Shown here one piece after another: positions 9,001-46,117 of a DNA stretch of 48,769 nt. The notes beneath the pieces were generated by a model. That model saw nothing but the letters and a program-made list of their open reading frames with translations, was not told the origin of the DNA and did not search any database. Source of the stretch: a virus; IMG/VR virus record IMGVR_UViG_3300027754_000143, positions 1 through 48,769 of that record; one strand, 5' to 3'. The position numbers were made by a program, and so were the translations under genes. Within the stretch, counting starts at the first letter, position 1. Every line of letters begins with the position of its first letter.

Positions 9001-12000
9001 CATTCGGATTGCCTGTTCGATATGCTGCATCTCTCGCAAAAATGTGAGATTTGACTGATGCCAGTATTTTATCTACTGCGGAATTGTAATCAGCCTTGGA
9101 ATGCCTCCCTATTTTGGGTGTTTTTGAAGTAGATGATTCCCCCTTCGGTGTTGGAACTTTCAATGGCTCCCTTGCGGGAGTTGTAGCGGCACCTGCGCCC
9201 AAGTCGGATCGCTCCGACGAAGGGGGAAATTTTTCTAGCAACTGCTCATTGCCGTCTTTCCCTTTGACGGTTTGCTCTTGGTTTTCGGTTTGGCCATTGG
9301 TATCGTTGGTTTGGGTTGCCTCAGTTTTGCCCGCTGGGGTTTCGGGTGATTGGTTTCTAATCCTATCGACAAGCCCGTGCGCCAGCATCGTCGGGATATT
9401 TCTGCCTCCATCTTTCTTCGCAAAACCCAGCTTGGTTAGTTTCTTAATCTCACCCTTTGTAGCACCGGAGTCCTCAAATGACGTTACGAATGAAAAAGAT
9501 GAATCATGGGTTGCCGCATTCGCCAGAAGAAGCACTTTTACGTCGTCTTGTAATCCCTGAGTTTCATTCGCGCTCGTTTTGACCGGATTTCTCGTTTTGG
9601 TCACTTTGAAGTCACGGCCAAATGGGATGCTTTTCGACATGCCCGTGTAGTCGGCAATGGCGTCCTCTTTTGAGTCAAACACGTTATGGCCAGACGGACC
9701 TTTAGAATCCACTCTCGTCGCCCTCCATTTCCCTTGTTCTGACGGGTCTTTCGTGATCAGCACCTTCATTCCTGGGAATGTTGGGCTTTCCATCTCAACA
9801 CCATCAAATCCTTCTGATTCGGCTACCGCTTTATCGTAACGCTCTTTGACTTCCCTTCCTGCACGACCGAAGTCGAAAGGTTCCTCTGTCGCTGTTTTGG
9901 TTGTGTTTTCCGCTTCTGGAGCGGGAGATTCTGCTTTTGGAGACAGCCAATCGTTAAAGGCGCTATCGACCGCTGCTGGGTTTTTGGCTGCAAAATCAAT
10001 AGCCTTGAGGCGATCCAGTTCACTGGAAATAGAATCCAGTTCTGGTGTCAGTTCGGTAATCTCCTGATCGGCATGACCGATACTGTCCCTCATCGCCTTG
10101 ATTCTCTTGGCGCGTTTCGCCTCGTTCAATTCACCAAGGTTCACGTCGTCCTCGCCGTAGAAATTCCCCGGCGTGTTATCCTGAATCGTTATTGTTCCTT
10201 CGGTCTTTTTATAGACCCTGTTCATCCATGAGGATATTGTTTTCTGGAGACGCTTCTTTTCTGCGACGGCGGATTCAATGGCGGAGCTAATCTTTTCGCG
10301 TCTCTTTTCGAGTTGCTCAATTTTTTGCTCTGTTGTAGGAGCGGGAGATTCTGCGGAAGGCTCGGTTAATTCAACGGTGTGCCGTCCCCCACCGTATTTG
10401 AAATTGAAAATAACATTATCAACTTTAATTGGGCGTGATTTCCCGTCGTAGTAATATATTGCATCTCCACCGTCGATGTATCCTGTTGGAATGCCGTCAG
10501 GATCTGATTCAAATATTTCAAATAATGTCTGTGGGTCAGAAAAATAACGCTCATCACTGTCCGCGTTTAACTGATTTTCTATCTCAGAAGCATCGCGCGG
10601 CGTCGCTATTTTGACTCGCTTTACAAGTTTAGAAGCGTCCTCGCTTTTTCTTGGCCTGTAACCAACTAATCCGTCGAACACAAAACCGTGTCGAGCATAC
10701 CATTCCACTAATTTCTTTTCCGATAAATGTATTCCAGACGCTTGAGCACCAGACGGATCAACTGTGAGAGATATTGACATATCACGATTATCCACCTCCA
10801 TTAAGATGCGCTTTAATTCGCGGCTGGCTGCGCCATTGTTACGATTACTCTCTTTGGGAACAGCGATAACCTCCAGAGAAACGTCACCTACAAACTGCTC
10901 GCCATTTATCTCTACTATATCCGCCTCATCGGACAGACTTACCTCAACACCACTCTCAGTCTCGTAATTTCCAGCAGCGTCACGCATAGCCCCTGATATT
11001 CTTCTCCCTTTTTGGTCGCTTGGAGCTAGAATATCCGATAACTTCACTGCTGACACTCTAGACTTTACTCGCGTTTCTTCTGCGGCAGGCTCGGCCACGT
11101 CGCCAGCCAGCTTGTCGGTTGCGGGTTGCTCATCGGTCGTTGCTCCTACTGGGTTTGCTTCATCAATCGCTTTCTGGAGGGCATCTTCAAAGGAAACCCG
11201 ATCTCTATCCATAATTTCTTGGATTCGGGACTTGTAAACAGCGACCCTTTTCTTCCCTGTTGGGACAGAAGCGGATTCATTCGGTGCTTGATCGCTACTA
11301 TTCTCCTGCACGATAAACTCGGCGGGTTTATCCTGCATCTTCGGTGTAGCTTCGGCTGGCTTCGGTGCTTCCGCCTTCGATTGCTTCTCTGCCCTCCAAT
11401 CATCCCATTTCTTGCTACCCCCCATAGTCGGCCCAATTCCTAATCCCATTGGCTTAGACGGAATGCCTCGGAATCTTCTGACGGCATCAATCATTACACC
11501 AACATCGTCTCGGTCCATCCCGGTGATCTTAACAACCTCGTTGATCTGAGCTTTTTTAGGGAGTCCACTGACTTCGAGGTTTTCGATGTAGTCCGCCAGC
11601 GAGCCATCGCCCTGCTTAATCGTTTCAGCCCCACTGTAAGCGGTCTTGTGCTGATTGTAATTAGCCACTATCCGATCAACACTAGGCAATCCACCGCCGA
11701 CCTCAGTATCTTCGTCCCATGCCTTTACTAGTTTTTCCGCCTCTTGATTGGGAAGTCCTGCCTTAACGAGTGCTTCAACAGATGGACGTTTAGCCGCTTG
11801 GTTGTTCTCCGTCGCGGGTGAAGGTTCGGGAGCAGGCACCTCCTCCGCCTTCTTCGGAACAGCAATATCGTCCAGTTCCTCAATCCGCGCCGTCACAGTA
11901 TCCACCATCTCCTGCACAACCGCGTCAAAATCAGGGTTCTTCCCGTTCATCATCCCCTTCAAATACTTAACAATCGCATGGAGCGCACTCTTAACCTTCT

Positions 12001-15000
12001 TCACTAGATCTGGGGTGTTATGCAGTTCTTCCTGCCGTAGTTCCTCGCCGTCCACCGTCCACTTCCCGCCCTTGATCTGAATCTTCCCGGCAATCAGAGC
12101 CGCCAGAAACTCATGCGTGACATCATCCCCCTCCGCCTTCGGGTAAAGTTGCTTCATCACCTCTGTCCACGCGGCGTCCTCAGACAGGTGTTTGGTGATT
12201 GAATCGAAAAGTTTCCTGCCTTCCGCCGTCTTTGAGAAATCTTCAACAATCTTGTGAATCCCCTCCTCGCGCATAACCAAATCCGCCCACTGCTTAGTCG
12301 ATGCTCCCTTTTTCAAGTTTTTCGCCGTATGCAAGATGTCTGGAATGGAAACGACTAGCTTCCCGCCATCAACTGAGAACCCAGCAGTCCCTTTAGGTTT
12401 CATCGTGAATACAGGCTTGGCATCGCCAAACGCAGGTTGGAACCTAGCAATAGCCTCGCGGACATGGCCAAGTGCCTCCGCAACGTCACCCTGCTCCTTG
12501 TCATCGAGGATGACGTCATCGTTATCCTGAATCTCGTTGATTGCCGTTTTAACGTCCTCGGGGTGCTCCACGGGAGCCTTTTCGGGCTTGGGTGCCTCCG
12601 CCTTGGGCTTAGGTGCCTCACTAGCAGGCTTCGCCGCCGCCTCATTCCCGTGAATCGCCCTCTGCGCCAACTCGCTCGTAGGGAGGATTTTCGACGTTTC
12701 TGGATAGAGTGCCGCGCCATCCTCGCCCTTGGCTTGGCTCACACGGTTCAAGAACTCCTGCCGCAAAACATGGGTTTCGCCAGACTTGTCAACAGCAGGC
12801 TCCACGCCTTCCGACTTAGCCAGCAACACGTCCTGCTCACCCTTGAGCAGTCCATCCCACCCGTGCTCCTGCATTTTAATCGCAGCCGCCAGTTTAGCAG
12901 CATTCTCAGGGTTCCGTGCCTTCTCTGCTTCCACCTCGGCCTTCGCCGCTTCGGGATCGCCATCATTCACCACTCCAGCCATCCGGTCCAGCGCATCGCT
13001 ACGGGAAAGCAAAGCATCATGCAGGTCAACCATCGCAGCGTCCTTAGCCTCACCATCAGGAGCCGTCTCCACCGCCTTGCGCTTTGCCGCAATATCCGCG
13101 TCAATACTCTCAAGCTCAGGGAACGCACCCGCATGTCCTTCATGCCCTGCAAGTAGTGCCTCTGTGGAAATGCTGCCGTGCAGTTTCTCCAGATCATCCA
13201 CCGCTGCCTTGATTTCGTCGGGAGTTTGCGGAGTGATAGGTTCATCCGGTGCAGTCGCGTCACCGCCCTTAGCCCCACCACCGTTGTCCTTGCGAAACTT
13301 GTCAATCGCCCGCCCCCGGTTCAATGACTCAACCATCCCAGGCAGAACACCCATCAATGCTCCCATCCCGGCAGATTCAATGGCGGAATGAACAATCTCC
13401 CCAACCGTGATGTTCGGGTTGTAGGTCGCCTTGGCAACCAACTCCTGTGACACCGTGAAAACAAACATTTCCGCCGCTTGGTCGATGATATGCGGAGCCA
13501 TGATCTTGCTCGTATCGGCAGACATGCGGAGGAATGCCTTCACGCCCTCCTTCATGGAGCCACTGTGAATCACGTCCATGATCGTTTTCTCGCCAGCTCC
13601 CGCCACAAAGTCCGCAGCCGTCATGTTCACGGCGTCCTTGGGCATGGAAATCATCTTCTTCATCAGGGACTCCTGCCCTTTCGGGAATGCCAGTGCCACG
13701 ATGCCTCCTAGAACGCCGGAGAGCATCGCCACATTTCGACCGCCAGCCGTGCCGATTGTTTCCGCTTTCGCCTTGATCTCATCCATCTCCTGCGGGGACA
13801 TCTTGGAAAGGTCTTTCCCGGCAAGCAAAGATTGCATGGCTTGTGCCGTGTATGCCGTAGTCGCAGAGTTCATCACGCTGCCAGCAGTCATCGACGCCAT
13901 CATGGAGAAGCTGGAAACCTTGTGGATAATCGGAACGTTCACGCCCGCCATTATCATTTTCATCAACGGGGCCGCATTGCGCGTTTCCATGAGTGTCTGG
14001 AATCCACGCCCCGCAGCCTGTGCCATCTTGGGAGCCATTCCCGACTCAACCATCGCCGCAGCATACTCCGCCGCCGTGCTGGCACCCTTGGCCGCAGCCG
14101 CCTCTCCCATAGCTGTGACGCGCCCCATGATCGGGAGTGCCTTAGCCGCAGCCACGCCCTCGCCAATGCCCGCCAGCCTTGCCCCCATGCCGACCAATGC
14201 CCCCACCTTCATAAAGGGAAGCATCTCCAAAGTCATCTTGGTGAGGTCTGCCGCCGCTGAGTTCATACCAGCAAGCTCTTGCGCCTCGCCCTCGTAGGCT
14301 CTCGACATCAGCTTTGCGCCAGATGCCATACTTTCGCCTAAACCTGGAATATCCGCCGTCGCCATGCTCGCAAGCCCCATCAGACCCGCGTCCACACCGC
14401 TCCCAGCAGTCTGGAATGCCTGCCACGCCTTTTCACGGGTGCCAGCAAAGGAACCCCACGCGCTAGGATTGAGCAGACGCGCAAACTTGTTGCCGTCCAA
14501 GCCTTCCTTCTGCCGGAAATGCTCAATCACGTCAGGGAAATACTCCGCAGAATGCTCCTGAGCGTAGGCTGGCCACGCATCAGGGAAAGATTTTGTCATC
14601 GCACGCACAATGTCGGCCTGATTCGCCGGATTCTTGCGCTCGTTGTAGAGAGAAATATCAAATGCTGCCTTGTCCGGTCCCGCTTTAGAATTGCTCTCGC
14701 TCGTCATTTTATCCGAATCCCACATCACTGAGGGATTGATGACATATTTTCCATTGCTTAACAGGTGGGAACGCCCGTCCTTGTAGATTCCTCGGAAGGA
14801 AGCCTTCTCGTAATCAGTCACAGACTTGTCCACAAGCTCATACGGAACTCCCGTCAGTTTAGCCCATTTCTCTTTCTCACCTTGGGAAATCTCCTCCTGC
14901 ACCTCAAGCGGTTTGCGGCTCCGCAGACTCTCTGCTTCCTTCTCGGCTGGCGTCATCTCAGACTCGGGCTTTAGCTTCTTCCGACGCGCAATCTCTCCGT

Positions 15001-16903
15001 TTGCCACCACCTCCTGCTTCCGCTGTAAATCGCTAGGCTCATCATTGGGTTCAGGCTGAACTTGATTCCACTGGTTCAAGGCATGGCCATGAGCGTCAAT
15101 CAGGTCAAAGACTTCACGCTGCTTTTGGTCGCCCTTGCCAATAGCTTCCGCCACCTTCTTGTCGGCAATGTCCGCGAGTTTTTGCTTCTCGTCATCGGGA
15201 AGCCCCGCAGAATCGCGCCGGAATGCCATCTTGATGTCGCGCACCTCGGGAGCAATCCCAGCATGGAACGGACTCTTGGTAAGTGCCTCAATCTGCGAAT
15301 CCTCACGCAGGATTTGCGCCCGCTCACTTGCCTGATTCACGACTTTCCCGCGACTCTCAATGTCCACGGCACGCTTCTGGATACCCGCCCGCTTCTGGTT
15401 ATACCAGCTATTGTAGGCAATCTCATCAGAAATAGTAGACACTCCCGCCTTTTTAGCCTCTGCCTCTTTCTCGAAGGCATCCCGGTCAGCCGCAAACTGC
15501 TTGGCGTCATCGTTGAGCTTGACCGTCTCACCTAAAAGGACGTGCGGTTCATTGGAAACTTCATTCACAGTGTCTTGCGACACAGGGGGACCCTTCGTGT
15601 CCACCTTCGGAACCATGCTGTTCGCCGCACTCTCCGTATCCATTAGTTCCTTCTGCAACCCATTCTTTCGGGCACCCCACGCCGCAACCCTGACCCCAAG
15701 ACTCGCCACCGCCTGTTCGTGCATGAACCGATCACGCTCATTCATCGGTTGTTGCCGCTGCGCCAGTAGCTTTTTGCGGTCATTCTCTAGTTTCTGCTGT
15801 TCTCCAGCAAGTTCTTTCTCGACTAGCGATGTATTCTTGAGCTTGTCCTCAACAATCTGGCTCTTAATCGCAGCCTGATCCTCGGGATTAACCTTCCCAA
15901 TCAGTTCGTTCCGATAGTCGGCGACAGACATTCCCTTAATCCGCGCTTGGTCCTTGGTAATTCCAGTAATTTGATCCTCGACATCCATTTGCTCCTTGGT
16001 CCGCTCTGCACGTCCCCTATCCTCATCGTTGAAGGGCGTGTAGCTCCCGTCTCGGACAGCCTTACGGTCCTTCCCGCCCAAAACATCGTAGGAATGCACA
16101 CGGCTGGACTCAAGTTCCCGCTTCTTGTCAGCAAGCTCAGTCAACGCCCGCTTCCTCTGCTGTGCAGAATACAAGTCGCCCACTCTCTTGTCGGGATGGA
16201 AAAGTGCTTGCTCCGGCTCAACCCGCGTCCAAGGAGATGCCTTGTTCTCAAAATAAACACCCGTGTCCTCTGGGTCATCCTTGTTGCTAACAACTTTGGC
16301 GTCCTTCTCAGGATTCAATACCTTTACACCGCCCGTTTCGTCAAGGACAGTCTGGTAAGGTCGCCCAGCCCCGTCATAACGGACCTCATCCTTAATGATA
16401 TTTCGGTCCTGCTCTCCAGTGAAAAGGTTTGTCTTCGGCGCAATGCCTCCACCATGAGTCGTAATCGTCTCCGCACCAGGATTCTGCACCCTCGCAATGT
16501 CCTTGGCCTGCCCCTTCGCATCAGCAATAGCCAAGTTAGCCTGCCTCACCCGCTCACGCTCCGCAGCATTATTCGCACGCAAAAGCTCCGCGTCCTTACT
16601 CCGCTGATAGGTCTGGCTTATCCGCTCATTCTGAGAATCCACCTTGCTGGGACCAAAAAACGAAGGAGGCGCCGTCCTCGGCATCACAGGTCCACGCCTG
16701 AAAACATTCGGAACAGGTGCCGCCTTCACCGCCTCCTGCTTGTATTGCGGCTCCCGCACCGGCATCCGCTCCGGACTGTAAACTTGCCTGTCAGGGAAAT
16801 CCTGCGCATCATAAGTTCCAACCCCACTAGAATCAAACTCTTGATCCTGTGTGTCCGGCTGGGAAATGTCATTCGGATCAATGATCGCTTGGAATTTGGC
16901 CAT
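3026..16903 (-). CDS. giant polyvalent internal virion/ejection protein, about 4,625 aa
   Basis: One uninterrupted frame. Start ATG 16903 (MAKFQAIIDPND) is preferred; ATG 16921 and TTG 16936 are alternatives. Order: charged coiled-coil N-terminus (to about 820); long Ala/Gly/Met-rich hydrophobic stretch (about 825-1190) able to insert in membranes; zincin-like helix MREEGIHKIVEDF (about 1545), where the usual HExxH first His is Glu; GNAT acetyltransferase-like segment (about 1990-2090; ASRELKRILMEV...EWYARHGFVFDGLVGYRP); several modules separated by Pro/Ala/Glu/Lys linkers (AEAPKPE, AESPAPE); long coiled coils (about 3300-4000); a C-terminal region resembling the large-polyvalent-protein domain LPD38 (IIPVKRVPTNILSRVLSYG). 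Known polyvalent phage proteins enter the cell with the DNA; that role is inferred. I found no T7/N4-type RNA polymerase motifs. Two segments are markedly A+T-rich, suggesting acquired modules. Confidence 0.85.
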   Translation of the reverse strand: MAKFQAIIDPNDISQPDTQDQEFDSSGVGTYDAQDFPDRQVYSPERMPVREPQYKQEAVKAAPVPNVFRRGPVMPRTAPPSFFGPSKVDSQNERISQTYQRSKDAELLRANNAAERERVRQANLAIADAKGQAKDIARVQNPGAETITTHGGGIAPKTNLFTGEQDRNIIKDEVRYDGAGRPYQTVLDETGGVKVLNPEKDAKVVSNKDDPEDTGVYFENKASPWTRVEPEQALFHPDKRVGDLYSAQQRKRALTELADKKRELESSRVHSYDVLGGKDRKAVRDGSYTPFNDEDRGRAERTKEQMDVEDQITGITKDQARIKGMSVADYRNELIGKVNPEDQAAIKSQIVEDKLKNTSLVEKELAGEQQKLENDRKKLLAQRQQPMNERDRFMHEQAVASLGVRVAAWGARKNGLQKELMDTESAANSMVPKVDTKGPPVSQDTVNEVSNEPHVLLGETVKLNDDAKQFAADRDAFEKEAEAKKAGVSTISDEIAYNSWYNQKRAGIQKRAVDIESRGKVVNQASERAQILREDSQIEALTKSPFHAGIAPEVRDIKMAFRRDSAGLPDDEKQKLADIADKKVAEAIGKGDQKQREVFDLIDAHGHALNQWNQVQPEPNDEPSDLQRKQEVVANGEIARRKKLKPESEMTPAEKEAESLRSRKPLEVQEEISQGEKEKWAKLTGVPYELVDKSVTDYEKASFRGIYKDGRSHLLSNGKYVINPSVMWDSDKMTSESNSKAGPDKAAFDISLYNERKNPANQADIVRAMTKSFPDAWPAYAQEHSAEYFPDVIEHFRQKEGLDGNKFARLLNPSAWGSFAGTREKAWQAFQTAGSGVDAGLMGLASMATADIPGLGESMASGAKLMSRAYEGEAQELAGMNSAAADLTKMTLEMLPFMKVGALVGMGARLAGIGEGVAAAKALPIMGRVTAMGEAAAAKGASTAAEYAAAMVESGMAPKMAQAAGRGFQTLMETRNAAPLMKMIMAGVNVPIIHKVSSFSMMASMTAGSVMNSATTAYTAQAMQSLLAGKDLSKMSPQEMDEIKAKAETIGTAGGRNVAMLSGVLGGIVALAFPKGQESLMKKMISMPKDAVNMTAADFVAGAGEKTIMDVIHSGSMKEGVKAFLRMSADTSKIMAPHIIDQAAEMFVFTVSQELVAKATYNPNITVGEIVHSAIESAGMGALMGVLPGMVESLNRGRAIDKFRKDNGGGAKGGDATAPDEPITPQTPDEIKAAVDDLEKLHGSISTEALLAGHEGHAGAFPELESIDADIAAKRKAVETAPDGEAKDAAMVDLHDALLSRSDALDRMAGVVNDGDPEAAKAEVEAEKARNPENAAKLAAAIKMQEHGWDGLLKGEQDVLLAKSEGVEPAVDKSGETHVLRQEFLNRVSQAKGEDGAALYPETSKILPTSELAQRAIHGNEAAAKPASEAPKPKAEAPKPEKAPVEHPEDVKTAINEIQDNDDVILDDKEQGDVAEALGHVREAIARFQPAFGDAKPVFTMKPKGTAGFSVDGGKLVVSIPDILHTAKNLKKGASTKQWADLVMREEGIHKIVEDFSKTAEGRKLFDSITKHLSEDAAWTEVMKQLYPKAEGDDVTHEFLAALIAGKIQIKGGKWTVDGEELRQEELHNTPDLVKKVKSALHAIVKYLKGMMNGKNPDFDAVVQEMVDTVTARIEELDDIAVPKKAEEVPAPEPSPATENNQAAKRPSVEALVKAGLPNQEAEKLVKAWDEDTEVGGGLPSVDRIVANYNQHKTAYSGAETIKQGDGSLADYIENLEVSGLPKKAQINEVVKITGMDRDDVGVMIDAVRRFRGIPSKPMGLGIGPTMGGSKKWDDWRAEKQSKAEAPKPAEATPKMQDKPAEFIVQENSSDQAPNESASVPTGKKRVAVYKSRIQEIMDRDRVSFEDALQKAIDEANPVGATTDEQPATDKLAGDVAEPAAEETRVKSRVSAVKLSDILAPSDQKGRRISGAMRDAAGNYETESGVEVSLSDEADIVEINGEQFVGDVSLEVIAVPKESNRNNGAASRELKRILMEVDNRDMSISLTVDPSGAQASGIHLSEKKLVEWYARHGFVFDGLVGYRPRKSEDASKLVKRVKIATPRDASEIENQLNADSDERYFSDPQTLFEIFESDPDGIPTGYIDGGDAIYYYDGKSRPIKVDNVIFNFKYGGGRHTVELTEPSAESPAPTTEQKIEQLEKRREKISSAIESAVAEKKRLQKTISSWMNRVYKKTEGTITIQDNTPGNFYGEDDVNLGELNEAKRAKRIKAMRDSIGHADQEITELTPELDSISSELDRLKAIDFAAKNPAAVDSAFNDWLSPKAESPAPEAENTTKTATEEPFDFGRAGREVKERYDKAVAESEGFDGVEMESPTFPGMKVLITKDPSEQGKWRATRVDSKGPSGHNVFDSKEDAIADYTGMSKSIPFGRDFKVTKTRNPVKTSANETQGLQDDVKVLLLANAATHDSSFSFVTSFEDSGATKGEIKKLTKLGFAKKDGGRNIPTMLAHGLVDRIRNQSPETPAGKTEATQTNDTNGQTENQEQTVKGKDGNEQLLEKFPPSSERSDLGAGAATTPAREPLKVPTPKGESSTSKTPKIGRHSKADYNSAVDKILASVKSHIFARDAAYRTGNPNDESGISAYDMVQSLQGNVRNTLERYNESAERGFPEKDILELYRKDSRVLSVIKKILNGEDQEFGFDLIPSLYNKVGGNANIRFIREWLNYGNKTSQPNVIKGDSDSPRNKDTGTNRITESNVVQPSRDIPDTGKMGEAIRGGKEGASEQNQELSQSPAAGEQSPVAAPSVESIRAMKGEKLAAKREANPIQAQIAELRADAKRFRREASDYNKSTQGRAVANKGRNNIHETNPGNIIRTYRAPMLENSESAKHSELIKKADAATKEADKLEASIGIQPKERGTFTPVSSNKEQRGAGLYLNGKAFGVEGRIGRDNRGNAYIVFGESEVIPLDTNSLAEAKARFVKEAKKRSGKPADKNALPNNPEPKQAEPSESPAPAPVEKTEQDSQQAPARDASRPEQMTPDEFAAYEKEKLIAHAKQNLDWAKRGVEEPSVFTNGAKSKAALIKKRTAELKAAMESTAKPDLWSAVIEAAYKKVPISEALVNGMPDTSTNPDVRSLRQQAIDNITEKGYAKRGELYVHEGDSKPIRSAPVAGNDPQNSESHRQEDINRRREAAGEPPFEKGAPRGWDQVEARAKAKLAANPRLGVELASKFEYGKDTVSDEEHFILGLDYERIQKEMARNHDILADSNGENTPAVKQAERELDRLEDEQVRNQSASFYGHGSNAGRALNARRKAFEANYSQGAMLRKIEASIRRRLDPSDPKDKEIIKKVGEETKRHAEASKAKQKLEDERDKLDSTKAAETAHADGLEEAKKAGMVPTSPEEDSFISRIRSGYSKLKAKAESIIDSLWGTKDKSIKSQQFGGIHDAIVDYATALRSEGANSIDKIRDGFVKRFGEEAVKANLDPVIDRLWEATDAHLDDTIAKTGGNESPAAKKQATARIKKTDEPSAIIANVVERMKVKAGEGKEIRDLDTYTKKVGIQLIRSGIKGREELFDALHEEVKEVFPNVSRQDVVESFSGYGRRKPLTEDPDLLHAMDMAAQGRELSKLDDILVKARAHQVSGIERKAPDPETRRLIKLAKKTIRENPDLYKGSAEGAGRSVEQSIATRLLNEIEEMDEAIANGKPMVSKDGKREYSPENKALLERRNAKRKEYEENFKDVIAANRSEKALSFVENEIAKVKKQIETGNIWPERPDAKEKPTSKEIEAKRTELDTLTKERDALRAADTAHRDEVRLKQLQRVGEQYTKRVAKMDETGQSDRQGKESRAMTPAEVSMREMNKRVQRQVRELQDKLDPFIVEASIKAAQARLASSIAKVDARTALLSKELERIKAAKAAGKPLSRAEIEAGQESLAELLSLVAKTGDQAKLQAIVDGNPDTIKEMTDTLKAKAAAKEKVGMDTRIEEAQLKVRQSEIALKKMQLDLEDASRSKLDKFGEFSSELAKANVLSGPGVFAHLSGAGVAGIIGSHLRTVPVAGARLLAKVWPALGQFLDIATHSGHASWGAEAAMYRGNAKAGGELTPGGLLTKPTRKSVKEKFTKGGGEVDTLYGGEKYIPHGGLHKPTGVGDFVKMTMASVSASHATMKEGPRMAHFGKALTAEWAAAERMAEKSGDPANHPSVNELVKYAVRVRALVHANKEIMMGDNLISNLSLKAMRQAANVEKVSPELAKFLLHTVNIIIPVKRVPTNILSRVLSYGVGSVSGPGTFAIKALQGKLKGFKEGKAKITPDEVEWIVEQTRNGMLGLGVLLAAWAKPDAFGGIFIPGDDTRRKGPLKYGDIDIGKLFGMNRSVTLDHKFAHDPLMLMASEVAQLRKLMDSTYEKTGDMREAYMDSAYMAPFMLLHGEPVYNALSRLSSPYSKPEDKISGIAANILTNKLVEAAFAYGDKDDRGEPIKRQAKTLADKIKVGWGFRDSVAAKQDGLSIEAMAPGYNKLKDGSVPEWVKASVEWNKNVEKLRNEGKLPPGDNWKMFIPEKADNYIPSTSDRDKVVLSREMRDKRTEKAKDYMNTLMGTFKPSGNALADMNRIRENHAKAQKQATIDIKRELMVR
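9918..9934. repeat. 17-base linker repeat, copy 1
   Basis: GGAGCGGGAGATTCTGC occurs here and again at 10338-10354, both inside the giant gene and both encoding the linker AESPAP on the minus strand. Identical DNA at module borders could guide recombination that swaps or duplicates the module between them. Confidence 0.75.
10338..10354. repeat. 17-base linker repeat, copy 2
   Basis: Exact second copy of the sequence at 9918-9934, encoding AESPAP in the giant protein. The segment between the copies encodes a coiled-coil module (QLEKRREKISSAIESA...). Just upstream in protein order lies the A+T-rich acetyltransferase-like module. Confidence 0.75.
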
Positions 16904-16980
16904 CTCGGAGTTTAACCGCATTCCCCACAACCGCAAGAGGATAAACGCTTGCCTTCACCCATTTCCCGAGTAGATTGATC

Positions 16981-38582: not shown

Positions 38583-38843
38583 ATGAACCCGCCAGAAACC
38601 AAACCATTCACCTTCCAAGTTAGCGGCGACCACTACAAGTCGTTCGCCATCCAGCCCACCGAATACATCCACCGCAACGGCTTAGGCTTCTGCGAGGGGA
38701 ATGTGATTAAGTATGTCACCCGTCACGACAAAAAGGACGGAAAGCGGGACTTGGAAAAGGCGATTCACTACCTCCAACTGCTGATCGAGATGGAGTATCC
38801 AGCATTGCCGGAAGTCATCAATCCTGAAACGACACCAGAATGA
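38583..38843 (+). CDS. DUF3310 protein (T7 gp1.7-like nucleotide kinase family), 86 aa
   Basis: The full family pattern is visible: 'FQVSGDHYKSFAIQPTEYIH' then 'RNGLGFCEGNVIKYVTRHDK' and 'KRDLEKAIHYLQLLIEMEY'. DUF3310 is widespread in phages; T7 gp1.7, a distant member, phosphorylates dTMP/dGMP, but short members like this one may lack that activity. The gene overlaps the methyltransferase by ATGA and is the first of the plus-strand sugar run, with a predicted leaderless start. Confidence 0.88.
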   Translation: MNPPETKPFTFQVSGDHYKSFAIQPTEYIHRNGLGFCEGNVIKYVTRHDKKDGKRDLEKAIHYLQLLIEMEYPALPEVINPETTPE

Positions 38844-39553
38844 ACCTGAAACTAATCGACGGGACCACCCACGAACTCCAGCTTACCACGCCGGAGATTC
38901 AATCCCACTTCGCAGCCCCCAACAACTGCACGCGGGAAATCCTCCACCAGTTCAACGATCTGGACTACTACCAGCGGTTCCTTTCCAAGGACGACAAGGC
39001 AATTCTCGACTTCGGCTCAAATATCGGGCTGTTCGCTATCCACGTCTCGCCTTGGGCGGAAAAGATTGTCGGCTACGAGCCAACGCCTTCGCACTACGCT
39101 TTGAATCGCCAACTCACATGGAACTTCCCGAATATTGAGATTATCAATGCCGCAGTCGGCCCTCACACCGGAGAAATCGACTTCTTCTTTGAGCCGCACA
39201 ACACGACAATGAACTCAATGGTGCCTCGCACGGGACAGAAAACCACAGTCCCGTCCTTCTCCATTCCTGATATTCTCGCGGTTTACGATACCGTGGACTT
39301 CATCAAGATGGACATTGAAGGCTCCGAGATTTGGGCATTGACCGAGGAAGCCATTGAAGCCATTGCCAAGAAGGTGAAGAAACTCCTAATCGAGTTCCAC
39401 CACACGCAATACGGAACGGAAGTCCAGCATCGGGCGCAGTTCAGGTTCCGGTTTGAAGATGCCGGTATGAAGTGCGAAGAGTTCAATAATGACGGGCTTT
39501 TTTGCTCGACGAACGACAAGCTCTCCCATGAGGAGGGCGAAATAAAGCCATGA
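38840..39553 (+). CDS. FkbM-family SAM-dependent methyltransferase, 237 aa
   Basis: SAM-binding motif I 'AILDFGSNIGLFAIHV' (DxGxNxG), 'IVGYEPTPSHYALN' where Glu contacts the SAM ribose, 'IEIINAAVGPHTG' and the family hallmark 'VDFIKMDIEGSEIWAL' are all present. FkbM-type enzymes O-methylate sugars, polyketides and other hydroxyl groups. The glycosyltransferase, epimerase and transketolase genes that follow point to sugar methylation. It overlaps both neighbours by ATGA. Length is normal for the family. Confidence 0.9.
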   Translation: MNLKLIDGTTHELQLTTPEIQSHFAAPNNCTREILHQFNDLDYYQRFLSKDDKAILDFGSNIGLFAIHVSPWAEKIVGYEPTPSHYALNRQLTWNFPNIEIINAAVGPHTGEIDFFFEPHNTTMNSMVPRTGQKTTVPSFSIPDILAVYDTVDFIKMDIEGSEIWALTEEAIEAIAKKVKKLLIEFHHTQYGTEVQHRAQFRFRFEDAGMKCEEFNNDGLFCSTNDKLSHEEGEIKP

Positions 39554-40251
39554 CAACACCCAAGACTCCACCGCCCGACTCATTAGGAGCAGAGTCTTGT
39601 TTAGTCATCTTCCGAATTATGAGAAATGTAAACTGCCCCAAGACAAAAATCTTTGTCCGCTGCGATGCGTTCGGAGGTTCCGCCTATGAATTTGAACCAG
39701 CATGGCTCATATCAGTGCGAGCGATGCGTAACCGTCCCTTGTGTTTTCAGGTGTGGGTGAAGAAATACGCCGCCTGCTTCGACAAGGTGCCGCCCCATTG
39801 CATCTATTGGTATCAGCCGGAGGATGACCAAAAAGCCCTGCCTCTGCACAAAATACAGATGTGGGAGTGCCTGTCAGGATCAATCGAGGCATGGCGCAAG
39901 GATCAGCTCAACGATGTGCCAGTGCTGGTCAACCTCGGGAAAGGCATGAAGCCGATCAGCGGACACTACTGGTTCACGTTGGACTTTCTGCCCGAAGGTC
40001 AAGCACAAGGCATTCTTGACGTTGGCGACTCGGAACTGCTTGAAGAACACAAGGAGGGCAATGTGCTTCGCCTCGAAAACGGGCAAATCGCAATCTATCC
40101 GAACAATAGAATCAAGTGGCTCCCTGTTTCGCTCACCGGTCCAGATGCTGCCGCCACCATACCCGATTGGGATGTTGCGACCAACGCCCAATGGGATGAA
40201 TGGTGGGCGGATTCGGATGAAATCCTTGGAGATGCGAAATGGGCATATTAA
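39550..40251 (+). CDS. hypothetical protein in sugar cluster, 233 aa
   Basis: Not recognised. MTTPKTPPPDSLGAESCLVI then 'VRCDAFGGSAYEFEPAWLIS', aromatic-rich middle (QVWVKKYAACFDKVPPHCIY), 'GHYWFTLDFLPEGQAQGILD' and an acidic Trp-rich end (DEWWADSDEILGDAKW). Cysteines are scattered, not zinc-like. A downstream Met (residue 24) could be the start, but the ATGA overlap with the methyltransferase supports this one. It may be a cluster-specific enzyme or acceptor. Confidence 0.55.
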   Translation: MTTPKTPPPDSLGAESCLVIFRIMRNVNCPKTKIFVRCDAFGGSAYEFEPAWLISVRAMRNRPLCFQVWVKKYAACFDKVPPHCIYWYQPEDDQKALPLHKIQMWECLSGSIEAWRKDQLNDVPVLVNLGKGMKPISGHYWFTLDFLPEGQAQGILDVGDSELLEEHKEGNVLRLENGQIAIYPNNRIKWLPVSLTGPDAAATIPDWDVATNAQWDEWWADSDEILGDAKWAY

Positions 40252-40318
40252 GGCTAACAAGGAATATACCGACCAGAATTCGGAATAATGCGGAAAAACC
40301 TCGCGCAAACCAGAAAAT

Positions 40319-40939
40319 ATGCCAATCCTAACCACCTCCTACTTCGAGAACTACCAGCCGCTTGCCGACTTGGTGCTCCCCAACCTGCAAGCCTACTGTG
40401 ACCGCCACGGCTACGGTCTGAGAACGCAGATTTCCGACGATACCAGGAACTACGGGTTCCAGAAGATCGAGCAAATGCGCGATGCCTTGCCTGACACCGA
40501 CATGGTGCTCTGCTGCGACATTGACATTCTCATCACCAACTTCAATCACAAGATCCAGGACTTCACCGATCCTGAGAATGACGCCTACTTTGTGCTCGAC
40601 CGCTACGGATTGAACTCGGGAATCTCCATCTGGTGCAACCGTCCAACCGCCTACGAATACATCGACGCCGTAATGGCGACGGAAAAGCTCGGGTGCCCAC
40701 ACGAACAAGCCGCCATCACAAGCATGATCCGCGACTGGAAACGCTCCAAGCTCCTTCCCCACCCCAGCATCAACTCCTACCTCTACCGGGAGTATGGCGA
40801 AAACCGCCCACAGTCTGAGGGGCAATGGTTCAAGGGCGACTTTCTCTTGCACCTTCCCGGTTTACCGCTTAAAAGGAGACTGGAGATTGTCACGCGGAAA
40901 CTTGCGAACGACGTTATCACCGAAGAACAAATCCAATGA
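40319..40939 (+). CDS. nucleotide-sugar glycosyltransferase (GT-A, GT34-like), 206 aa
   Basis: The N-terminus 'PILTTSYFENYQPLADLVLP' then 'QAYCDRHGYGL', the DxD-type metal site 'DMVLCCDIDILITN', 'DAYFVLDRYGLNSGISIWCN', the 'HEQAAITSMI' motif and the end 'GDFLLHLPGL' follow the galactosyl/mannosyltransferase GT34 layout. It would transfer a sugar from a nucleotide donor to a glycan or protein acceptor in the cytoplasm. Acceptor and sugar are unknown. It overlaps the epimerase gene by ATGA; AAACCAGAAAAT precedes its ATG after a 67-base gap that may hold a promoter. Confidence 0.8.
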   Translation: MPILTTSYFENYQPLADLVLPNLQAYCDRHGYGLRTQISDDTRNYGFQKIEQMRDALPDTDMVLCCDIDILITNFNHKIQDFTDPENDAYFVLDRYGLNSGISIWCNRPTAYEYIDAVMATEKLGCPHEQAAITSMIRDWKRSKLLPHPSINSYLYREYGENRPQSEGQWFKGDFLLHLPGLPLKRRLEIVTRKLANDVITEEQIQ

Positions 40940-41781
40940 AACAATCCTACGTCCAGAATATCATCTCCCGGTGCGAAACCGTCCTGTCACGCATGGAAGG
41001 CAAGCGCGTGTTCGTCGCTGGAGGCACGGGCTTCTACGGCTCATGGCTGGTGAACGTGCTGGAGGAGGCGGGAATCGAGGTAGAATGGGGGGCGCGGAGC
41101 AACGGTTGGAACATTCTTGACCCGTCCACGTTCACTGAGTTCCAGAGGAATGCCGATTACGTCATCAATGCGGCTGGGAAGTCGGACTATCTTGGCAACC
41201 ACAATGTAATGGCGAAAGGTCCGGTGAATCTATTCGACGCGATGGAATATGGTTTCGGGATGATGCTCCAAATTAGTAGTGGTGCCGCCCCGCATTGCAG
41301 GACACCCTACGCCATTGCCAAGAATGAAGCTGAAATCTCGCTACTAGGAAAGGTCAAGATCATCCGACCTTACGCCACGGTAGGACCAGGAATGGGCATC
41401 GACCGCACGTTCGCCATCTCCACCTTCATTCGCCAAGCCCTCGCGGGGGAACCCCTCCACGTCGCGCCGGGAATCACCCGCTCGTTCTGCCACATCACGG
41501 ACATGATCGTGCAGATGCTCCACGTCCTTGTCGCTGGGGACTATCTACCCTACGATGCTGGGTCAGACGACGCGATTACGATGGAGGAAGCGGCACGGGC
41601 AATCTCGCCCAATGTGTTCACCTCGGATCAGAAGTTCCAGAGCAACGCCAACTGCGATTACTACGTCCCGAATCTCGGGCGGATGATAAACAGATTCCGC
41701 TCCACCTTCGCTCTGAATCTTCAATACTCCAGCACCTCCGCTATCGCTGACACTTACGAATACTACAAGGAGACAAAATGA
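40936..41781 (+). CDS. NAD-dependent sugar epimerase/dehydratase (extended SDR), 281 aa
   Basis: The Rossmann motif 'KRVFVAGGTGFYGSWLVNVL' and the active-site series 'LQISSGAAPHCRTPYAIAKN' (Ser, Tyr and Lys of the SDR triad) are intact; 'IRPYATVGPGMGIDRTFAIS' and 'HVAPGITRSFCHITDMIVQM' match later family positions. The N-terminal extension before the Rossmann strand (QNIISRCETVLSRMEGK) resembles one subgroup of nucleotide-sugar epimerases/dehydratases. It probably modifies an NDP-sugar for the neighbouring glycosyltransferase. It overlaps both neighbours by ATGA. Confidence 0.88.
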   Translation: MKQSYVQNIISRCETVLSRMEGKRVFVAGGTGFYGSWLVNVLEEAGIEVEWGARSNGWNILDPSTFTEFQRNADYVINAAGKSDYLGNHNVMAKGPVNLFDAMEYGFGMMLQISSGAAPHCRTPYAIAKNEAEISLLGKVKIIRPYATVGPGMGIDRTFAISTFIRQALAGEPLHVAPGITRSFCHITDMIVQMLHVLVAGDYLPYDAGSDDAITMEEAARAISPNVFTSDQKFQSNANCDYYVPNLGRMINRFRSTFALNLQYSSTSAIADTYEYYKETK

Positions 41782-42392
41782 ACAAACTTAGAAAGCGAAT
41801 CCTCGAACTCGCCTACAAAAACAAGCTATCCCACATCGGTAGTGCGCTTTCGTGCGTGGGAATCCTCGACGAGATTTACGCGGAACGGAAGCCTAACGAT
41901 CCCGTGGTGCTCTCCTGCGGTCACGCTGGACTCGCGCTTTACTGCGTGCTGGAGAAATATGACGGACAATGCGCTCAAGAGCTAATTGACTTCTGCGGGG
42001 TCCACCCAAAGCGTTCGGAACGTAGTGGCATCTGGCTATCCACCGGAAGCCTCGGCCAGGGAATCACCGTCGCCGTAGGCATGGCACTCGCAAGCCCCGA
42101 AAAGACCGTTTACTGCGTCATCAGCGACGGGGAATGCGCGGAAGGCTCGGTTTACGAAGCTCTGCTGTTCATTTCACGGAACAAAGTCCCTAACCTCAAG
42201 GTTTACTTGAACTACAACGGCTATTCTGCGCTCGGCGCGGTGCGTTGGCTGCCAGACATTGCCGTGGACCGCGCCACCCCATACTTTTTCGACATTCGCG
42301 ACCTTAAAATCCCGTTCCTAACCGGCCTAGACGCCCACTACTACACCATGACCGACGCCGATTGGGATTGGGTCCAACAAAACATGCCATGA
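41778..42392 (+). CDS. transketolase N-terminal (ThDP pyrophosphate-binding) subunit, 204 aa
   Basis: The pyrophosphate domain alone: 'LAYKNKLSHIGSALSCVGIL', 'VVLSCGHAGLALYCVLEKY', 'IWLSTGSLGQGITVAVGMAL' and the ThDP/metal motif 'CVISDGECAEGSVYEALLFI' (GDGE-type, here SDGE). Full transketolases are about 650 residues; this matches one domain and its partner follows with an ATGA overlap. A heterodimer should rebuild the two-carbon transfer site at the subunit interface. Split transketolases are known in bacteria and archaea; in a phage sugar cluster it probably extends or branches a sugar. Confidence 0.85.
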   Translation: MNKLRKRILELAYKNKLSHIGSALSCVGILDEIYAERKPNDPVVLSCGHAGLALYCVLEKYDGQCAQELIDFCGVHPKRSERSGIWLSTGSLGQGITVAVGMALASPEKTVYCVISDGECAEGSVYEALLFISRNKVPNLKVYLNYNGYSALGAVRWLPDIAVDRATPYFFDIRDLKIPFLTGLDAHYYTMTDADWDWVQQNMP

Positions 42393-42865
42393 GACGAGAC
42401 TTCCACCCGCTGCTACTAGCCCAAATGCGGAATCACCCGCAGATCAGGCTCATCACTGCCGACCTCGGCTACAAAATGTGGGACAACATCGCCGCCGAGT
42501 TCCCTGACCGCTTCATTAACTGCGGGGCATCAGAACAACTCATGCTCGGCATCGGCGTAGGCATGGCCCTAGAGGGACTCATCCCCGTCTGTTACAGCAT
42601 TGCCCCATTCCTGCTCAAGCGTCCCTACGAGTGGATTGACAACTATTTGGAGCACGAACGGATTCCCGTGAAACTGCTCGGCGGTGGACGCGGCACTGAC
42701 TACGCTCACGACGGCTACTCCCACGACGCCTCGAAAGACCTGAAAATCCTCGACACATGCCCGAACATTGCTAGGTTCATCCCTGAATCAGTGGCTCAAC
42801 TGCCGGAAATGGTCCACGCTTGGCTTCACCACACGGGACCAGCATACTTGAATCTGAAACGATGA
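42389..42865 (+). CDS. transketolase central (ThDP pyrimidine-binding) subunit, 158 aa
   Basis: ATG 42389 overlaps the previous stop (ATGA). 'IRLITADLGYKMWDNIAAEF' and 'RFINCGASEQLMLGIGVGMA' contain the conserved Glu that activates ThDP; 'VCYSIAPFLLKRPYEWIDNY' and 'GGGRGTDYAHDGYSHDASKD' match the substrate-contact region. The usual third (C-terminal) transketolase domain is absent, so the pair is a minimal two-domain enzyme. It would pair with the upstream subunit. Confidence 0.85.
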   Translation: MRRDFHPLLLAQMRNHPQIRLITADLGYKMWDNIAAEFPDRFINCGASEQLMLGIGVGMALEGLIPVCYSIAPFLLKRPYEWIDNYLEHERIPVKLLGGGRGTDYAHDGYSHDASKDLKILDTCPNIARFIPESVAQLPEMVHAWLHHTGPAYLNLKR

Positions 42866-43251
42866 TGGAACCACCCTACTTCCCGCCTCTAGTCTCCACT
42901 TGCCATTTTATGAGACTCACGCATGATGGCATCTGCTCCAAATGCGGGGTGCCTTCTGACTCAGCACCTCCATACTTTTGCTACTTATGCGGCAAATGGG
43001 GATACCATGCCAGCGAAAATTGCGAGAAGCACACCACAAAACCCATGAACGTCCCGCCTTCCATCTCTGCCTGCTGTTTCGCCCCGCTTACCGTGGAAGG
43101 CAAAGGCGCAACTCACTGGTATGCCTGCTCAAAATGCAAGCAACCAGCAGACCCAACCCCGCAATACTTTTGCTCATGGTGCGGACAATACGGCGACCAC
43201 GCCAGCGCAAACTGCGAGAAACTCAAAGGAAAGATCGCCAATGCCAGATAA
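42862..43251 (+). CDS. duplicated zinc-knuckle-like protein, 129 aa
   Basis: ATG 42862 overlaps the transketolase stop. Two similar halves each carry a CxxC pair (GICSKCG; YACSKCK) followed by Cx2Cx5Hx4C (CYLCGKWGYHASENC at about 43-57 and CSWCGQYGDHASANC at about 107-121). The second pattern resembles the retroviral/CCHC zinc knuckle but with five rather than four residues before His. Such knuckles often bind single-stranded nucleic acid or protein. Halves are internal duplicates of about 60 residues. Function unknown; its overlap with the sugar genes makes co-expression likely. Confidence 0.65.
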   Translation: MMEPPYFPPLVSTCHFMRLTHDGICSKCGVPSDSAPPYFCYLCGKWGYHASENCEKHTTKPMNVPPSISACCFAPLTVEGKGATHWYACSKCKQPADPTPQYFCSWCGQYGDHASANCEKLKGKIANAR

Positions 43252-44626: not shown

Positions 44627-44946
44627 GGCGTTGTTCCTTCCGGTTCGGTGAAATAGTTGTCTGGTATCCGCTCCCAAAGCTCAGGGTGCTCCTGCAATAA
44701 CGTCTGTTCACACTGCTCCACGAATACAATCTGCTGGTCCCGTGTCGCATCAACGATCATCTTCAAGCACTTCCGGCAAATGACGTAAAGGCAGATAAAT
44801 GGTGCTTCCATTCCTCCCTCGGGAACCGATTTCCGGTCATACCAAAGGCACTTGACCCCACCGGCGCGATGCTTCCCGCACATCGGGCAGTCAAATTCTG
44901 CGATGCTGCCGTTGACCGGATTGCTATTCAGTTCTTCCTGTGTCAT
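44623..44946 (-). CDS. small zinc-finger-like protein, 107 aa
   Basis: Two cysteine pairs, 'FDCPMCGKHRAGG' and 'VICRKCLKMIV', with an intervening Cys (VKCLWYDRK) form a probable zinc ribbon; a helical acidic tail follows (VFVEQCEQTLLQEHPELWER). ATG 44946 lies 23 bases inside the GT9 gene, so translation is coupled. Family not recognised. Confidence 0.6.
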   Translation of the reverse strand: MTQEELNSNPVNGSIAEFDCPMCGKHRAGGVKCLWYDRKSVPEGGMEAPFICLYVICRKCLKMIVDATRDQQIVFVEQCEQTLLQEHPELWERIPDNYFTEPEGTTP

Positions 44947-46117
44947 TTGCTTGGGTTTCTGGTTCGGGTTCAGCCTCGTCCTGCACCTCTGCAGTCGGAA
45001 TCATCGGGGGATTGTCCTTCGAGAAGCCCAGCTTCATAGGCTTGGATGCCCGTAGCTTCTCCGGTAGCATCTCGACAAGCCGAGCAACCACCCTCTCAGC
45101 GGAAATAGTCGCCAACACATCGCACTTGCCGGACTGGTTGCATGGACCGTGAGGCGGAAATGGCCCAATCCCCGCTCCGTGCCACGAACATGGCGCACAT
45201 GGCCCGTGACCATTCAAAACCTGCACAGATGGCGCGTAGGCCGTCCGCAATTTCCACGGGTAGGAACCGTAAAGCCCTAGCGCAGGAATGTTCAACGCCC
45301 CCGCAACGTGCAAAAGAGCGGAATCTGGTGCCAGAACCACGTCGCATGTGGACATAATCGCACACGACCCTCTGAAAGTAGGAGCAGGTTCAAAGGCGTA
45401 AACACACGTCACCTCGGGCATGTCACACTCAATCTCATCCGGCCTCCCAAACAAAAAGACTTCATACCCTTTCTGGACAAGCAAGCCCATCACATGCGAC
45501 AACTGCTCCGGTGGATACGAACGTGCAGGGGCAGATGCCCTCGCCTGGATACCAATCCGCGCACGATCCGTCCTCGGAAAGCACGCATTCGCCGCCCCAA
45601 ACTCCTCTGGACCCATCATGTAGTCCATTCTCCGGTCCTGATCGACCAATGCCTTCACGTCCCCAAAGATGCACCGCGCAAGCTGATCCACAGCATGGGT
45701 GGTAAACCCGTCATCGTTGTTCTCAATCGAGTTCTCCAGCCAAATCAACCGCTTCCCATCGACAATCGCCACAGGAAACGGGTAGGCAATCAGCGCATCA
45801 ATGTAAGGCAGGTTCTCCAAGGCAGAATTATACGGCTGCAACTGAAGGCTGGCCTGCGTAATCTTGCAATCAGGCTCCCGTCGCTTCAATTCACGAAATG
45901 ATGGAGTCAAAAAAAGCATGTCTCCGTAACCTCCCGCCCGCATCACCAGAATATCCTTGGATTCAGGGTCGCCCAACGTAGCAGGGTCAACCCACTCCGC
46001 CCTCGTAAATGGACTCTGGTTCATAACCATCCCGGCATTCTCGTCAGTCAGGTAATACGGCACTCGGGCAATCATCCCAAGTGCAGGAAAGTCGGTTTCA
46101 GTCGTTACTTTGTGCAT
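44924..46117 (-). CDS. glycosyltransferase family 9 (heptosyltransferase-like), 397 aa
   Basis: The N-terminal Rossmann motif 'DILVMRAGGYGDMLFLTPSF' (family: xxRxGxxGDxxxTxPxxxxL) and the nucleotide-sugar site 'DVVLAPDSALLHVAGALNIP' then 'ALGLYGSYPWKLR' are typical of GT9, the ADP-heptose:LPS heptosyltransferases and relatives. The C-terminal half has extra Cys (HGPCAPCSWHGAGIG; GPCNQSGKCDVL) that may bind a metal. It would add a sugar to a surface glycan or a virion protein and may work with the plus-strand sugar genes. The leader contains AACCTGAAAC, as do two genes upstream. Confidence 0.85.
   Translation of the reverse strand: MHKVTTETDFPALGMIARVPYYLTDENAGMVMNQSPFTRAEWVDPATLGDPESKDILVMRAGGYGDMLFLTPSFRELKRREPDCKITQASLQLQPYNSALENLPYIDALIAYPFPVAIVDGKRLIWLENSIENNDDGFTTHAVDQLARCIFGDVKALVDQDRRMDYMMGPEEFGAANACFPRTDRARIGIQARASAPARSYPPEQLSHVMGLLVQKGYEVFLFGRPDEIECDMPEVTCVYAFEPAPTFRGSCAIMSTCDVVLAPDSALLHVAGALNIPALGLYGSYPWKLRTAYAPSVQVLNGHGPCAPCSWHGAGIGPFPPHGPCNQSGKCDVLATISAERVVARLVEMLPEKLRASKPMKLGFSKDNPPMIPTAEVQDEAEPEPETQANDTGRTE

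Follow-up and report, generated by a model that had tools for sequence, protein, structure and literature searches.

Why would a virus encode a transketolase (TK) as two small proteins, without one of its domains and in the midst of glycan genes? The pair in question lies on the IMG/VR virus record IMGVR_UViG_3300027754_000143 (positions 1 to 48,769; this whole stretch of 48,769 nucleotides is referred to as the window) and consists of TKN, the subunit with the ThDP-diphosphate binding (PP) domain, and PYR, the subunit with the pyrimidine-binding (Pyr) domain; ThDP stands for thiamine diphosphate. We found that the pair belongs to one clade of two-domain, two-gene TKs that lack the third domain, TKC, and retain an invariant active site. 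The best-supported putative function of this two-domain pair is the branching of a keto sugar.

An earlier note had described six genes at 38840-42865 on the plus strand, mostly joined by ATGA overlaps, and coordinates and family scans agree with this description. Together with a glycosyltransferase (GT) gene further downstream, they are:

38840..39553, plus strand: FkbM-family S-adenosylmethionine-dependent methyltransferase (TIGR01444, 68.5 bits against a cut-off of 37.7; Pfam E 1e-10)
39550..40251, plus strand: PHROG 3704 protein, listed before as "unknown" (PHROG E 1.4e-35)
40319..40939, plus strand: GT34-like glycosyltransferase (Pfam 23.4 bits, barely above the cut-off of 23)
40936..41781, plus strand: extended short-chain dehydrogenase/reductase (SDR) (PF01370, E 5e-13; SSGA...YxxxK, without the DE dehydratase motif)
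41778..42392, plus strand: TKN, PP subunit, 204 aa (Transketolase_N, E 7e-10)
42389..42865, plus strand: PYR, pyrimidine-binding subunit, 158 aa (Transket_pyr, E 5e-20)
44924..46117, minus strand: GT9-family (heptosyltransferase-like) glycosyltransferase (PF01075, E 2e-15)

ATGA overlaps join the upstream DUF3310 gene to FkbM, FkbM to the PHROG 3704 gene, GT34 to SDR, SDR to TKN and TKN to PYR, and a gap of 67 bases separates the PHROG 3704 gene from GT34. TTG 42362 was rejected as the start of PYR, and ATG 42389, the ATGA of which overlaps the TKN stop, was taken.

A transketolase of two domains on two chains

The transketolase-like group has been described as three-domain, with PP, Pyr and TKC domains (PMC7661550). 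The pair in the window had been read as a split TK that keeps its ThDP sites and has no third domain, and both the domain borders and the invariant residues described below bear this out. Transket_pyr covers residues 9-167 of 167 aa, counted from TTG 42362, so that PYR ends exactly at the domain border and TKC is missing. AlphaFold (AF2) predicted both subunits with high pLDDT (92.5 for TKN and 96.3 for PYR), and by sequence as well as by fold the best PDB matches were the two chains of the split TK of Carboxydothermus hydrogenoformans, 6yak for TKN and 6yaj for PYR.

The C. hydrogenoformans enzyme is active only with both chains, forms an alpha2beta2 assembly with ThDP between the PP and Pyr domains, has no PP-Pyr linker and accepts bulkier acceptors (PMC7661550). 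The phage pair resembles it in having PP and Pyr on two chains without a linker and in keeping the ThDP and main donor residues. In contrast, the C chain of the known enzyme contains TKC (residues 164-312, PMC7661550) whereas the phage PYR stops at the Pyr border, and the alignment of the two spans only residues 36-193 of 341. The phage TKN is also shorter, and the gene context is one of glycan genes. The literature that was searched held nothing relevant on two-domain or TKC-less transketolases, on transketolase together with CDP-glucose or O-antigen, or on phage transketolase together with glycan genes.

Loss of the third domain marks a single clade

Scans of viral sequences with each subunit alone gave several contigs, and an alignment search then yielded 315 viral stretches with a relative, of which 80 were retained, together with 43 loci in bacterial genomes. 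Close relatives have a Pyr protein of 156-186 aa with TKN just upstream, compared with 290-330 aa in ordinary split TKs. The number of residues after the Pyr domain is 0-2 in 85 of the 86 two-domain relatives and 13 in the remaining one, as opposed to 134-156 in 15 other TKs. A tree of 101 sequences placed all 86 two-domain rows in one clade (support 100/98), with members in phages, Patescibacteria and Omnitrophota. The best-scoring three-domain split TKs from 300 genomes of the order of the Nitrosomonadaceae metagenome-assembled genome (MAG) G038 and from 287 genomes of the phylum Patescibacteria all keep about 150 residues past the Pyr domain; with six of them added, a second tree needed only one switch between the two architectures, as did all (100%) of its 200 bootstrap replicates. 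Loss of TKC is not accidental: it is shared by one clade of two-domain, two-gene TKs in phages and some bacteria. Because two-domain queries drew the sample, rare exceptions to this correspondence of clade and architecture could be missed. A TKC-less clade with an intact active site and many members in phages would represent a natural minimal form of TK.

No relative was found in an isolated phage when TKN and PYR were searched by tblastn against 50,697 phage records, where the best matches reached about 39% identity (short), or 36% for TKN and 32% for PYR, and included human-faecal, Listeria and Acinetobacter "phage" records. Among the records of the relatives, a T4-type portal is present in two, a T4-type capsid in two and a terminase in 2 of 10, and in L015 the cassette lies close to a gene for a major head protein; the viral status of the remaining viral records rests on the IMG/VR classification.

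Phage-type pairs were also seen on short contigs assigned to bacteria, namely L095 and L096 (Planctomycetaceae TMED10 MAG) and L090 (Nitrosomonadaceae MAG). L095 and L096 share their cassette with viral contigs (L059 and L068, for example), and both may be of phage origin and have been binned with a bacterium. PYR of L090 is 88% identical to that of the window at the amino acid level, which hints at the host of the window phage, but the DNA match is limited to the PYR stretch.

The active site is of the transketolase type

TKN H19, H49, H76, G90, D117, G118 and N147, as well as PYR E49 and H112, are invariant in 58 diverse sequences. The ThDP/metal motif of the PP domain (DG...N; D117, G118, N147) and the catalytic Glu of the Pyr domain (E49) are therefore kept in 58/58. 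By alignment, H49, H76, G90 and H112 are equivalent to EcTK H66, H100, G114 and H473, the roles of which were taken from PMC7661550. As we read the alignments, the two-domain form keeps equivalents of EcTK R358 and R520 (R2 is invariant, and R or K is found at 158 in 58/58) but seems to have other residues in place of S385 and H461.

A ThDP enzyme in a sugar locus might also use pyruvate. If the pair were a DXS- or YerE-like enzyme, it would add an acetyl branch from this donor; the Pyr subunit and DXS have a fold in common, and YerE, found in the same kind of locus, does use pyruvate (PMC12247030). However, DXS has Phe at the position of EcTK H100 (PMC7661550), an argument for a TK-type donor rather than pyruvate, and the equivalent TKN H76 is invariant throughout the 58 sequences. 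Given that split TKs are also the best matches, we regard a pyruvate-dependent pair as improbable, and the assignments to DXS and to decarboxylase-type enzymes are both disfavoured on these two grounds.

The cassette is conserved and under purifying selection

FkbM, GT34, SDR, TKN and PYR follow each other in the same order in L003, a contig of 43 kb that is related to the window and has genes 67-96% identical to those of the window at the protein level. Between the two, the ratio of nonsynonymous to synonymous substitution rates (dN/dS) is 0.05-0.26 for FkbM, GT34, SDR, TKN and PYR, indicating purifying selection; the same order at such ratios implies that the arrangement is more than chance. 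GT34 is 91% identical between window and L003, and a further relative of this borderline match, in L017, is recognised as GT34 with an E value of 8.5e-18. GT9, on the strand opposite to the cassette, is 94% identical to its L003 counterpart in amino acids (dN/dS 0.085) and is a possible partner in the pathway, as had been suggested before.

These ratios bear on whether the pair could be an inactive remnant of a three-domain split TK. TKC is gone and TKN is short, with 204 aa compared with 282 in the matched 6yak chain, which would be consistent with decay, yet the active site is invariant in 58 lineages, dN/dS is low and one clade shares the same border. We judge a remnant highly improbable.

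The PHROG 3704 protein belongs to a cyanophage/pelagiphage family present in 110 phage records, mostly of cyanophages. It has no match in L003 or in the other loci examined, which places it outside the cassette; not being conserved with the TK pair, it was rejected as a member, and its gene is, as far as gene content tells, an insertion. The deposited names of the family ("ferredoxin", "PurM", "transcriptional regulator", hypothetical) conflict and look like misannotation.

Sugar genes surround the pair in distant relatives

At 80% identity, the non-redundant set comprised 57 representatives, 37 viral and 20 bacterial. A reductase/epimerase-type SDR lies near the pair in 36/37 viral loci and takes 28/56 of the slots directly upstream and 22/56 of those directly downstream (50/112), with few occurrences 4-6 slots away. 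A 4,6-dehydratase-type SDR is found in 20/37 viral loci, FkbM in 13/37 and GT34 in 6/37. DegT proteins in which His replaces the pyridoxal phosphate (PLP)-binding Lys (AHH/ASH motif) occur in 13/37, and 12 of these 13 loci also have the 4,6-dehydratase; this combination of 4,6-dehydratase and 3-dehydrase is likewise present in two three-domain TK loci. The DegT proteins of L058 (456.8) and L004 (465.9) pass the RfbH equivalog cut-off of 423. Among the bacterial representatives, an SDR accompanies the pair in 17/20 and a DPM1-like GT2 in 16/20, often together with a methyltransferase. The pair thus recurs in phage and bacterial glycan loci, but not as the six-gene unit of the earlier note, since the PHROG 3704 gene is not conserved.

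Phages carry carbon-metabolism genes, and the pair might accordingly be a general metabolic TK, an auxiliary metabolic gene that raises nucleotide supply by driving the pentose phosphate pathway and has glycan neighbours by coincidence. However, an SDR nearly always lies next to the pair, and in distant phages and bacteria alike the pair is flanked by glycan enzymes. Moreover, an Omnitrophota genome with a two-domain pair (G039) has ordinary split TKs as well, plus a full-length TK/DXS-like gene, which makes the two-domain pair look specialised. Ordinary TKs in this carrier and glycan genes as neighbours make a metabolic role very unlikely.

Three-domain relatives point to a possible keto-sugar acceptor

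Complete rfbF-rfbG-rfbH loci, encoding glucose-1-phosphate cytidylyltransferase, CDP-glucose 4,6-dehydratase and RfbH, surround two related three-domain split TKs: L142, from a genome in the order of G038, and L148, from a Patescibacteria genome. Their neighbours score 497 and 468 for RfbG (cut-off 278), 734 and 671 for RfbH (423) and 469 and 277 for RfbF (300), respectively. The products of rfbF, rfbG and rfbH make CDP-3,6-dideoxy-4-keto-glucose. In yersiniose synthesis, YerE branches CDP-3,6-dideoxy-4-keto-D-glucose with a C2 unit from pyruvate (PMC12247030). Because the split TK sits in the place of YerE, it may branch that acceptor with a hydroxyacetyl unit, and these loci provide a concrete acceptor candidate for a ketone-accepting TK. 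L142 and L148 group together (95/82) within the three-domain side of the second tree, which makes them relatives of the two-domain clade but not its proven sisters.

YerE is a ThDP carboligase whose substrate is a keto-deoxy nucleotide sugar, and we propose a role of this kind for the phage pair. It belongs to the decarboxylase superfamily (PMC12247030), whereas the pair is of the transketolase type with a TK-type donor site; the comparison would thus concern only how the two work, as the pair matches TKs best. Split-gene TKs have been proposed, without in vitro proof, to place a hydroxyacetyl branch on a keto sugar in the miharamycin and amipurimycin pathways and in 13 Streptomycete clusters (PMC12247030). 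Those systems belong to actinobacterial secondary metabolism and involve neither phages nor surface glycans.

Several observations weigh against keto-sugar branching. The window record has no 4,6-dehydratase, its lone epimerase-family gene being a reductase-type SDR, and no DegT (3-dehydrase) protein; the L003 record likewise has neither. The keto acceptor of the window must consequently be supplied by the host or by genes missing from the sequence, unless the acceptor is a different sugar. Across the relatives, the 4,6-dehydratase is missing from 17/37 viral loci and from all of the bacterial representatives (0/20), and the His-type DegT from 24/37 viral loci. The DegT of L020 has the active-site His and scores 369, below the RfbH cut-off, as does a group of shorter relatives of about 380 aa (L050, L023, L075, L083 and L087; e.g. 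L050:7301-8440) with SFYASH at the PLP-lysine motif. The dehydrase role of L020 and of this group, possibly a separate phage 3-dehydrase subfamily, therefore rests on the active-site His. Finally, ketone-accepting transketolases have only been proposed and none is proven in vitro (PMC12247030), and some phage loci carry heptose-type kinase and nucleotidyltransferase genes instead, which fits a C7-sugar role.

A true TK acting on sugar phosphates would produce a C7 (or longer) ketose phosphate; once activated to a heptose-type nucleotide sugar, this product would be transferred by the GT9 enzyme encoded in the window. In some phage loci, TKN-PYR-SDR is followed by genes for an rfaE-domain-I-like kinase, an rfaE-domain-II-like nucleotidyltransferase, a HAD protein and a cupin. 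In addition, the three-domain split TKs L144 and L145 sit beside SDRs and a GmhA-like sedoheptulose-7-phosphate (S7P) isomerase (that of L145 assigned by sequence), which may reflect a second sugar route for split TKs. However, the rfaE2-like nucleotidyltransferase is present in 5/37 and the heptose-type kinase in 2/37 viral loci, compared with 13 for the 3-dehydrase-type DegT and 20 for the 4,6-dehydratase, and there are no heptose-type genes among the annotated window genes. In addition, S7P is normally supplied by the TK of the host itself. We consider heptose synthesis unlikely, although it has some support.

Proposed pathway for a branched sugar

The earlier note's guess of a branched sugar gained comparative support from the 4,6-dehydratase, RfbH-type 3-dehydrase and reductase SDR neighbours and from the rfbF-rfbG-rfbH loci. 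The SDR next to the pair, described there as an epimerase/dehydratase, lacks the 4,6-dehydratase DE motif and is therefore a candidate reductase or epimerase rather than a dehydratase.

We infer the activity, acceptor, product and target as follows. TKN and PYR would form a ThDP- and metal-dependent, transketolase-type carboligase that has shed TKC. Its donor would be a ketose phosphate or a similar compound, from which a two-carbon (glycolaldehyde/hydroxyacetyl) unit would pass to the keto carbon of a deoxy nucleotide sugar, giving a branched sugar. The adjacent SDR could reduce the resulting ketone or prepare the keto acceptor; FkbM, a candidate sugar O-methyltransferase, would methylate the sugar; and the GT34-like enzyme, perhaps also GT9, would transfer it to a virion or host glycan. 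That the pair is a two-subunit ThDP carboligase branching a keto nucleotide sugar by two carbons, with reduction, methylation and transfer of the product, has in our estimate an even chance of being correct.

More tentatively, and with somewhat less than an even chance, phages might encode a hitherto undescribed two-domain TK class, that is, a ketone-accepting C2 carboligase acting on nucleotide-linked keto-deoxy sugars and yielding branched-chain sugars new to viruses for virion or host surface glycans, in which the active site, without TKC and linker, would be open enough to admit a bulky nucleoside diphosphate (NDP)-sugar. The absence of TKC could suit such an acceptor. Pelagimyophages carry lipopolysaccharide-related genes (rfaE, glycosyltransferases) thought to alter the O-chain of the host (PMC7029224); they are alike in combining phage sugar-nucleotide and glycosyltransferase genes, and transketolase is not mentioned in that study. 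Viruses may make unusual branched sugars for a glycan coat. If so, phage-made branched sugars would be a possible tool for defence, exclusion of co-infection or receptor change.

Neighbouring genes and the window record

Two small genes adjoin the cassette:

38583..38843, plus strand: DUF3310 protein (PF11753, E 6e-12; ATGA overlap with FkbM)
42862..43251, plus strand: CxxC-repeat (zinc-ribbon-like) small protein (from its translation; ATGA overlap with PYR at 42862)

A Pfam scan of the window proteins identified an SU10-type portal gene immediately upstream of the cassette, and its product has no relatives in the phage collection searched. A simple check of the first bases of the window found no exact end repeat, and a promoter/terminator scan performed no better than chance. 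More than a quarter of the record (3026-16936, minus strand) is taken up by one open reading frame of 4636 aa, with no Pfam match at E 0.01. The DUF3310 protein is probably outside the sugar cassette. At the other end, a protein similar to the CxxC-repeat protein also comes after PYR in L003.

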